Virus record (IMG/VR): IMGVR_UViG_3300035703_000036
Location: 1-64,000 of that record
Strand: one strand, 5' to 3'
Length of the DNA stretch: 64,000 nucleotides
Source: a virus
The translations under genes and the position numbers were made by a program. Below the pieces are notes generated by a model, which saw only the letters and a program-made list of their open reading frames with translations, was not told the origin of the DNA and ran no database searches. This document shows positions 19,803 through 21,217 of this stretch, one piece after another. The first letter of the stretch is position 1; every line of letters starts with the position of its first letter.

Positions 19803-20351
19803 ATGAATAAAGAAATAATAGAAACAATCCAATTAACTCTAAGTTCACTTAAACGCGATCCCATCGTATGTGCCAGAATTTTTTCCATAATATTTCTGTT
19901 TTATAAATTTCTCAAGAAAGACAGGATGTTCAGAGTAGATTTTCAAGCCATTATAAATTTTACAGTGTTCATGATTATGGTTACGCTTGTAAGGCTGATA
20001 GTTTTGGTTAATTTTCCAATCACAGTTCCAGCAGGATTAGAACAAGTCTCAAACATAGGAATTCTATTTGTCTTCTGGGAAGATTTGTTTTTTGCTTATC
20101 CGATCATTATAGTAGAAAACTATATCAACAACAAATACCTGAGAAATCTCCTAATTTTTGCCATTTCTTTTATGTTTATGATGGGCCATACTTATCAAGG
20201 TTTAAGAGGTCTAATCACTATTGTCATACCTTATTTTGTAATGGCTAAGGTCGGAAAGAAATACGGCTTAGGAACTTCAATGGTTGGTCACGTTATGTAT
20301 GATTTATTCACAGTGTTGACCGTTATTTTTGCATTAGCTTTATTGCCTTAG
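19803..20351 (+). CDS. CPBP-family intramembrane metalloprotease-like protein
   Basis: 182 aa with about five to six hydrophobic helices. CPBP (CaaX protease/bacteriocin-processing) signature: motif 1 W92-E93-D94 (EE in the family, here ED, without the usual Arg), motif 2 F125-x3-H129 (FMMGH), motif 3 H163-x3-D167 (HVMYD). Zinc-binding residues are therefore mostly present, and the E-to-D change and missing Arg may alter activity. No Shine-Dalgarno is seen and the promoter abuts the ATG, suggesting a leaderless mRNA. The mom-like gene starts 2 nt after its stop, so the two are co-transcribed. Confidence 0.65.
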   Translation: MNKEIIETIQLTLSSLKRDPIVCARIFSIIFLFYKFLKKDRMFRVDFQAIINFTVFMIMVTLVRLIVLVNFPITVPAGLEQVSNIGILFVFWEDLFFAYPIIIVENYINNKYLRNLLIFAISFMFMMGHTYQGLRGLITIVIPYFVMAKVGKKYGLGTSMVGHVMYDLFTVLTVIFALALLP

Positions 20352-20352
20352 T

Positions 20353-21129
20353 ATGGAAAAACCAAAGTACAACGATGAATTAAGCGAAAAGATAGGCGAG
20401 GCCTATCAATATAAAATTCGCTTAAAAAAAGCGGAAGAAGAAAAGTCCAATCCCTATTGGCAAAATGCCGACCTAGATCTTTCCAAAGCTATTGTCAAGC
20501 CAATCGATAGAACACTTGCTAAAAAAATAATTGAAGAATACGAATGGCTCGGATGTATGCCGGCGATCAGCAAGTACTATTTTGGTATATTTTTCGGAGA
20601 TGTTTGCGGCGGAGTTGTAGTTTTTAGTACTGAATATTCAGAAAATCTTGGATGCTGGAAAAAGTATGGATATGAAGGCAAGATGATATTGTTAAGCAGA
20701 GGCGTCTGCTTACATTGGACGCCAAAGAATACGGGAAGCAAGCTCATAACAAGAGCTATCAAAATGCTGCCGAAAGAATATGAAGTGATTACCGCTACAA
20801 CAGATCATTTAGCTGGAGAAGTTGGAACGATTTATCAGGCTTGCAACTTTTATTATATTGGCTCTATGCGAGATTCTAATCCAAAAGTTAATTCAAGAAA
20901 AGGCGATAGATTTGGTGTTGTGATCAATGGAAAACTATATTCAGCTAGAGCTTGCAGGGCCAAGTTTGGATCTCAAAAGAAAGCCGACATATTAAAACAT
21001 CATCCGGACGCTCAATTCGTAAAGCAAAGATCAAAGCATAGATATTTTCTGTTTAGAGGAAGTAAAGAAACTGTAGAAAAACACAAGCAAGCAATAAGTC
21101 ATTTGATTAAAGAGTTTCCTAAGAGATAA
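20353..21129 (+). CDS. mom: Mom-like adenine modification protein (GNAT fold)
   Basis: 258 aa. The core at ~52-172 shows the Mom family pattern: EWLGCMP (64-70), then a G-rich strand with GGVVVF (86-91), W-x-KYGY (102-107), LSRGVCLHWTPKNTGSKLI (114-132) and ATTDHLAGEVGTIYQAC (148-164) followed by FYYIG. Phage Mu Mom converts DNA adenines to the N6-carbamoylmethyl form and protects against restriction. The ~85-residue basic C-terminal extension is probably a DNA-binding tail. No com-like regulator is visible. It is directly coupled to the CPBP gene and followed at 14 nt by an aberrant tRNA-Gly. Homology call is strong; activity is inferred. Confidence 0.8.
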   Translation: MEKPKYNDELSEKIGEAYQYKIRLKKAEEEKSNPYWQNADLDLSKAIVKPIDRTLAKKIIEEYEWLGCMPAISKYYFGIFFGDVCGGVVVFSTEYSENLGCWKKYGYEGKMILLSRGVCLHWTPKNTGSKLITRAIKMLPKEYEVITATTDHLAGEVGTIYQACNFYYIGSMRDSNPKVNSRKGDRFGVVINGKLYSARACRAKFGSQKKADILKHHPDAQFVKQRSKHRYFLFRGSKETVEKHKQAISHLIKEFPKR

Positions 21130-21138
21130 TGTTAATAT
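21130..21138 (+). promoter_or_regulatory. extended -10 directly upstream of tRNA
   Basis: TG-T-TAATAT with its end 5 nt before the tRNA 5' base, so a transcript could start at the mature tRNA end. No good -35 at the right distance. Confidence 0.45.
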
Positions 21139-21143
21139 TATAT

Positions 21144-21217
21144 GCGGGTGTAGTTTAGCTAAAACGCCGGCAATTCCATGCCGGAGATGGCGGTGAAAAT
21201 CCGACCTGCCCGCTCCA
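21144..21217 (+). tRNA. non-canonical tRNA-Gly (UCC)
   Basis: 74 nt including an encoded CCA. Acceptor GCGGGTG pairs with TGCCCGC (two wobbles), discriminator T, TA at 8-9, D-stem GTTT/AAAC, anticodon stem CCGGC/GCCGG with TCC in the loop. Glycine identity features C2-G71, G3-C70, U73 and C35-C36 are kept. Unusual: the D-loop is only AGCTA and lacks G18-G19; the anticodon loop is 8 nt (AATTCCAT); the T-loop is TGAAAAT instead of TTCRANY; and the T-stem needs a bulged A. The elbow contact should be absent. It is either decaying or specialised for a non-ribosomal role. CTCC at its 3' end could pair with the GGAG ribosome site of the next gene. Confidence 0.65.

Follow-up and report, generated by a model that had tools for sequence, protein, structure and literature searches.

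A gene for a Mom-like DNA modification enzyme in the window (the whole 64,000-nucleotide stretch analysed, positions 1 to 64,000 of IMG/VR record IMGVR_UViG_3300035703_000036) is followed on the same strand by a gene for a tRNA-Gly(UCC)-like RNA with an altered elbow, and RNAs of this kind recur beside mom in other phages. We think it quite likely that Mom and the linked RNA form a DNA-modification module, in which the enzyme has its own glycine carrier and Gly-tRNA supplies the glycine. The linked RNA looks chargeable yet unfit for protein synthesis, and we infer that it is charged and that Mom transfers the glycine. The locus contains the following features:

19803 to 20351, plus strand: membrane-protein gene, 182 aa, weakly Rce1/CAAX-protease-like (Pfam, E = 0.006).
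20353 to 21129, plus strand: mom-like gene, 258 aa, for a GNAT-fold DNA modification enzyme (Pfam Mom, fold match to Mu Mom).
20737 to 20739, plus strand: codon of Ser129, the equivalent of Mu Mom Ser124 (alignment, conservation).
21144 to 21217, plus strand: tRNA-Gly(UCC)-like RNA gene, 74 nt, with encoded CCA (sequence, relaxed ARAGORN, covariance model R1).
21144 to 21150, plus strand: 5' strand of the acceptor stem, GCGGGTG (helix 98.9% paired across 26 relatives).
21153 to 21165, plus strand: D arm GTTT-AGCTA-AAAC, no G18G19 (sequence, relaxed ARAGORN).
21167 to 21184, plus strand: anticodon arm CCGGCA-ATTCCA-TGCCGG, 6-bp stem and 6-nt loop, anticodon TCC at 21175-21177.
21189 to 21206, plus strand: T arm GGCGG-TGAAAAT-CCGACC, T-loop TGAAAAT at 21194-21200, bulged A at 21204.
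21207 to 21217, plus strand: 3' strand of the acceptor stem TGCCCGC, discriminator T73 and CCA (sequence).

The protein encoded at 20353-21129 matched the Pfam Mom profile PF25680 with 92.2 bits (cut-off 27.1, E = 4.6e-26) and also PHROG 1384, "Mom-like DNA modification protein", which bears out the mom-like call of the first-pass annotation. Its AlphaFold2 model (pLDDT 82.6) retrieved the Mu Mom crystal structure 8bv8 as the top Foldseek match (E = 1.3e-11), followed by GNAT-type acetyltransferases, suggesting a Mom-type GNAT fold. Ser129 aligned with Mu Ser124 and was invariant in 27 homologues; the title of 8bv8 labels Mu Mom S124A an "inactive mutant". The membrane-protein gene ends with its stop at 20351, mom begins 1 nt later, and the two share an apparent operon; we claim no membership of the former in the Mom/tRNA system. 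A promoter scan around the mom/RNA locus gave matches at chance level only.

The RNA gene follows mom after a gap of exactly 14 nt (21130-21143), as previously claimed, and reads GCGGGTG-TA-GTTT-AGCTA-AAAC-G-CCGGCA-ATTCCA-TGCCGG-AGAT-GGCGG-TGAAAAT-CCGACC-TGCCCGC-TCCA. All 7 bp of its acceptor are paired, two of them as G-U. Elements of the acceptor, U73, CCA and the UCC anticodon are the identity elements of tRNA-Gly, and the window RNA carries the full set (G1-C72, C2-G71, G3-C70, U73, C35, C36, CCA). The canonical elbow is absent, with a D-loop of AGCTA lacking G18G19 and a T-loop of TGAAAAT instead of TTCRANY. The earlier description of an RNA that keeps its charging identity and misses elbow features is thus correct for the window, and we add that the anticodon stem closes to 6 bp and leaves a 6-nt loop in place of the standard 7 nt, which some relatives can form.

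Default ARAGORN and Rfam at the gathering threshold called no tRNA in the window, and ARAGORN, run on 104,000 nt of the 104,662-nt phage sequence, found 0 tRNA genes; the window RNA is the only tRNA-like gene found in these 104 kb. Relaxed ARAGORN labelled it tRNA-?(Glu|Gly). It scored 23.0 bits against RF00005 (gathering cut-off 29) and 74.5 bits with covariance model R1, built from mom-linked copies with the window in its training set. The -ps50 mode of ARAGORN was rejected as evidence, having produced dozens of false calls per locus. The folding energy of the single RNA was not significant (z = -1.6), and the case for the RNA therefore rests on recurrence.

To measure recurrence, a first pattern (GCGG, TTCC, TGNAA, CCGCTCCA) was run on 2.9 million viral contigs blind to mom; the scan patterns were derived from mom-adjacent copies, and the scanning itself takes no account of mom. 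The altered-T-loop tRNA-Gly pattern was present in at least 119 contigs. Mom was directly adjacent in 45 of the 119 matches listed, compared with 1 of 120 contigs for a control pattern with a normal TTCRA T-loop (Fisher p = 3.9e-15 among the matches listed, 3.4e-13 on unique sequences among them), where contig counts do not equal independent events since the contigs include many fragments and several near-copies. The sole Mom-adjacent control contig (L265) is intermediate, with a near-normal elbow yet the same bulged A, and it alone in the mom-linked upstream set keeps G18G19 and TTCRANY. In the first set, all 50 mom-adjacent elements among the matches listed share the mom strand. Around 160 Mom ORFs, a generic structural scan that reached 400 nt out found 52 matches on the sense strand, 0 on the antisense strand and 0 in shuffled sequence. 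BLASTN of one element against named phages returned no match. Two candidates were not counted: an R1 match in Melnitz-3 (L337, 497-570), whose acceptor AGGGGAA differs and which lies about 1 kb from mom, and a normal-looking tRNA-Gly 0.5 kb from mom in L077.

A second scan, which required the bulged T-stem and relaxed the acceptor, gave 102 contigs, and Mom was adjacent in 101 of them, an almost deterministic linkage for this subtype. This count comprises 40 of 40 bulged-A contigs found previously, 57 of 62 new ones with a same-strand Mom within 250 nt, and four resolved singly. Among the latter, Mom is convergent with the element and overlaps it in L455, is truncated where the stored sequence ends in L482 and lies just outside the stored locus in L469; in L500 (1-672, record G152) the Mom frame holds ten TGA codons, with the element beginning 2 nt past the mom stop. 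In the exception, L481, the contig begins 68 nt before the element. Since some test loci had entered the training of our own Mom HMM, we repeated the association with the independent Pfam model, which detected Mom in 49 of 50 bulged-A records and in none of the 50 controls. The first-pass annotation had proposed a search for neighbouring atypical tRNA-Gly genes at mom in other phages, and both scans found them. The bulged pattern was absent from the bacterial and archaeal genomes searched, so the mom-linked form looks phage-restricted. Default ARAGORN called 6 of the 102 elements.

At least some of the TGA codons in L500 fall at conserved glycine positions of Mom, so TGA is probably decoded as glycine in this phage (table 25, Gracilibacteria/SR1-like host). 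A Mom-like frame with three internal TGA codons also occurs in record G025 (locus L130, 24877-25443), about 10 kb from an altered tRNA-Gly; this frame is either recoded or decayed.

Further, the RNA itself shows signs of conservation. In 26 sequences, G1C2G3-C70G71C72, U73 and CCA are invariant and anticodon C35C36 nearly so. These sequences contain 103 two-sided changes, compared with 31.6 in shuffles, and sliding the pairing lowered covariation and destroyed the signal. Stems of the window RNA and its counterpart in L001 differ by compensatory changes. The covariation, the shuffles and the antisense controls together support the view that selection probably acts on the RNA.

The position of the RNA relative to mom is variable. 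The window has the side-by-side, non-nested form, and the RNA is likewise 3' of mom in Psychrobacter and Arthrobacter phages and several contigs. Many downstream copies overlap the 3' end of mom, and in several lineages (L025, L148, L152, L165, L175, L192) the mom frame continues there across the RNA. Psychrobacter phage vB_PmaS_Y8A carries two tandem copies without a D-arm directly after mom; in Arthrobacter phage Timinator the element overlaps the mom end and CTA replaces CCA. The Moms of the window and L001 are 80% identical, yet their RNAs lie on opposite sides of mom. Copies upstream of mom usually fall within its reading frame, with the start codon 4-13 nt ahead of the tRNA. Of 71 distinct upstream arrangements, 69 have a mom frame that stays open across the RNA, and 67 keep the same frame; 64 have an in-frame ATG or GTG no more than 20 nt before the tRNA, usually at -4, -7, -10 or -13 and in 39 with a Shine-Dalgarno-like sequence. 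In many nested copies Mom homology begins a few codons past CCA with no start codon between. A tRNA nested in this way implies that one transcript cannot yield both tRNA and Mom; the nesting may be either a switch or a tolerated overlap. Locus L087 (6954-8960) has two tandem mom-like genes with an identical tRNA-like element at the 5' end of each.

This mostly 5', in-frame position would also suit a structured control element of the mom message that supplies no glycine, a tRNA-like operator at which GlyRS binding or RNase P cutting limits Mom, along the lines of the tRNA-like operators of thrS or of Com control in Mu. Cleavage of an RNA inside the reading frame would destroy the mom message. 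Mom is described as toxic on artificial expression (PMC12707154), and mom translation is regulated in Mu (PMC6483171). We nevertheless regard this explanation as improbable: the RNA is 3' of mom in the window, the two named phage groups and several contigs, changes side between 80%-identical Moms, and is convergent in L455, and an operator needs neither the full glycine identity set nor an encoded CCA.

A linked tRNA is not a general requirement of Mom. Searching by Mom homology yielded 80 viral loci; of the 74 that we scanned with R1, which hold the closest relatives of the window Mom, 4 contain the element (window, L001, L025, L064), all of them in the training set of the model. No linked element was found near mom in Mu, Listeria, Proteus, Salmonella SP-038 or ICP1 phages. 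On a tree of 106 Mom domains (a quick tree with some long branches), element presence needs 14 changes, at least 8 of them forced by supported branches, which indicates that the RNA was repeatedly gained, lost or relocated and yet remained associated with mom.

Altered-elbow tRNA-Gly genes also occur without Mom, namely in phage tRNA arrays, Patescibacteria and Ruminococcus. L082, L083 and relatives are phage loci with 67-69 nt tRNA-Gly-like genes that have TGNAA T-loops and a conserved location, with no Mom in the records checked, and in L082, L088 and L099 the short element stands beside one conserved gene. In L154 and L180 (records G036 and G046) one genome holds both an altered tRNA-Gly and a strong Mom, separated by more than 50 kb, and the two may act in trans.

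How a dedicated tRNA could serve Mom can be outlined in a few steps. The translation features that the mom-linked RNAs have lost are G18G19, the usual T-loop, in many cases a normal anticodon loop and, in the Psychrobacter phage, the D-arm. Host GlyRS would charge the RNA with glycine, and the charged RNA would bind EF-Tu and the ribosome poorly, so that, in our proposal, the Gly-tRNA stays available to Mom. Mom would then accept the glycyl group, probably on its counterpart of Mu Ser124 (Ser129 in the window), and pass it to the adenine N6 of phage DNA, giving N6-glycyl-adenine. Attack of the glycyl amine on C6 via a five-membered ring would convert this to N6-carbamoylmethyl-adenine, the known product of Mu Mom; the two compounds are isomers. 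Mom enzymes without a linked RNA, which are the majority and include that of Mu, would draw on host Gly-tRNA. A GNAT with an active-site serine can act by a ping-pong mechanism (PMC8072286). Such a hand-over of glycine from tRNA to Mom to adenine would be chemically sensible, and it is our best explanation of the sequence data.

A review assumes an acyl-CoA such as glycyl-CoA as the Mom donor (PMC7824862). We favour Gly-tRNA, because a translation-stripped glycine tRNA is tied to Mom in diverse phages and because Fem, a second and unrelated system of glycine transfer, draws on tRNA of the same kind. Additionally, we lean towards the broader view that Mom enzymes in general are glycyl-tRNA:DNA transferases, representing the first aminoacyl-tRNA-dependent DNA modification, and that some phages nest a dedicated tRNA-Gly in the Mom frame, where a transcript becomes either enzyme or cofactor.

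The RNA might instead counter host anticodon nucleases, as a decoy or spare tRNA, or be an RNA substrate of Mom, and form an anti-defence cassette with mom. Both would belong in counter-defence operons, and TmcA, a tRNA-acting GNAT, is among the fold neighbours of the predicted window Mom (2zpa). We consider this very unlikely, since the glycine identity in every copy and the linkage to Mom only would be left unexplained, and an often abnormal anticodon loop makes a poor decoy. That the RNA is an ordinary, degenerating phage tRNA-Gly helping to decode GGA, the commonest glycine codon of this phage (46%), is hardly credible in spite of the related elbow changes in tRNA arrays and Patescibacteria and the near-canonical elbow of L265, given the tight mom linkage (50 of 50 listed first-set copies on the mom strand, one convergent copy in the second set, L455), the conservation with covariation rather than decay of the odd bulged A and TGNAA T-loop, the 6-nt anticodon loops, the D-armless tandem copies of phage Y8A and the near absence from tRNA arrays (2 other tRNAs in the 830 kb around the 102 bulged-A elements).

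A glycine tRNA tied to mom in many lineages thus points to Gly-tRNA as the glycine donor of the proposed module and makes the donor question testable. The mom loci also show a tRNA gene nested in frame within a protein-coding gene, and they expose a class of tRNAs that are probably non-translating and mostly escape standard tRNA finders. Nothing on a Mom-tRNA link was found in the open literature searched. That literature did not name the donor of the Mom modification; other Mu Mom papers may name it, in which case the mechanism would be less novel and the novelty of the dedicated nested tRNA unaffected.

Mu Mom (8bv8, PF25680) and the window Mom belong to the same family, with a GNAT fold and a conserved catalytic serine. 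In contrast to the window, Mu has no tRNA-like RNA near mom and uses the zinc-finger regulator Com, and its Mom lacks the extra N-terminal helical part of the window protein.

The closest likeness to the RNA is found in staphylococci, whose non-proteinogenic tRNA-Gly has GG18-19 replaced, binds EF-Tu weakly and feeds cell-wall glycine transfer (PMC4052509). The altered-T-loop pattern, searched for in 257 Gb of bacterial and archaeal sequence, mainly matched the tandem tRNA-Gly genes of Staphylococcus, Macrococcus and Mammaliicoccus; the likeness that the first-pass annotation had drawn to these RNAs therefore holds at the level of sequence, with the same elbow signature in Staphylococcus and Macrococcus. 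The other real-looking matches came from Patescibacteria, some Ruminococcus and further Bacillota; an altered elbow by itself is therefore no proof of a non-translating role. An A18/G55-type elbow was seen in cellular tRNA-Gly of Bacillota MAGs (L358, L405, L420, L438) and Patescibacteria (L343, L360, L373, L375); outside staphylococci such tRNAs may be ordinary in their lineages or have other non-ribosomal uses. Like the window RNA, the staphylococcal FemXAB tRNA-Gly(UCC) keeps glycine identity and has altered GG18-19 and T-loop, and it is reserved for non-ribosomal glycine transfer (pentaglycine bridge, FemXAB). Unlike the window RNA, it is encoded in host tandem tRNA clusters with no linked DNA-modifying enzyme, has no bulged A in the T-stem and forms a normal 5-bp/7-nt anticodon arm.

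Fem, L/F-transferase, MprF and others spend an amino acid from tRNA outside the ribosome (PMC4052509, PMC4810233). These aminoacyl-tRNA-dependent transferases are work-alikes of the proposed Mom system; their known acceptors are peptides, lipids and small molecules, with no DNA acceptor described there. If our proposal is true, DNA joins the substrates of aminoacyl-tRNA-dependent enzymes.
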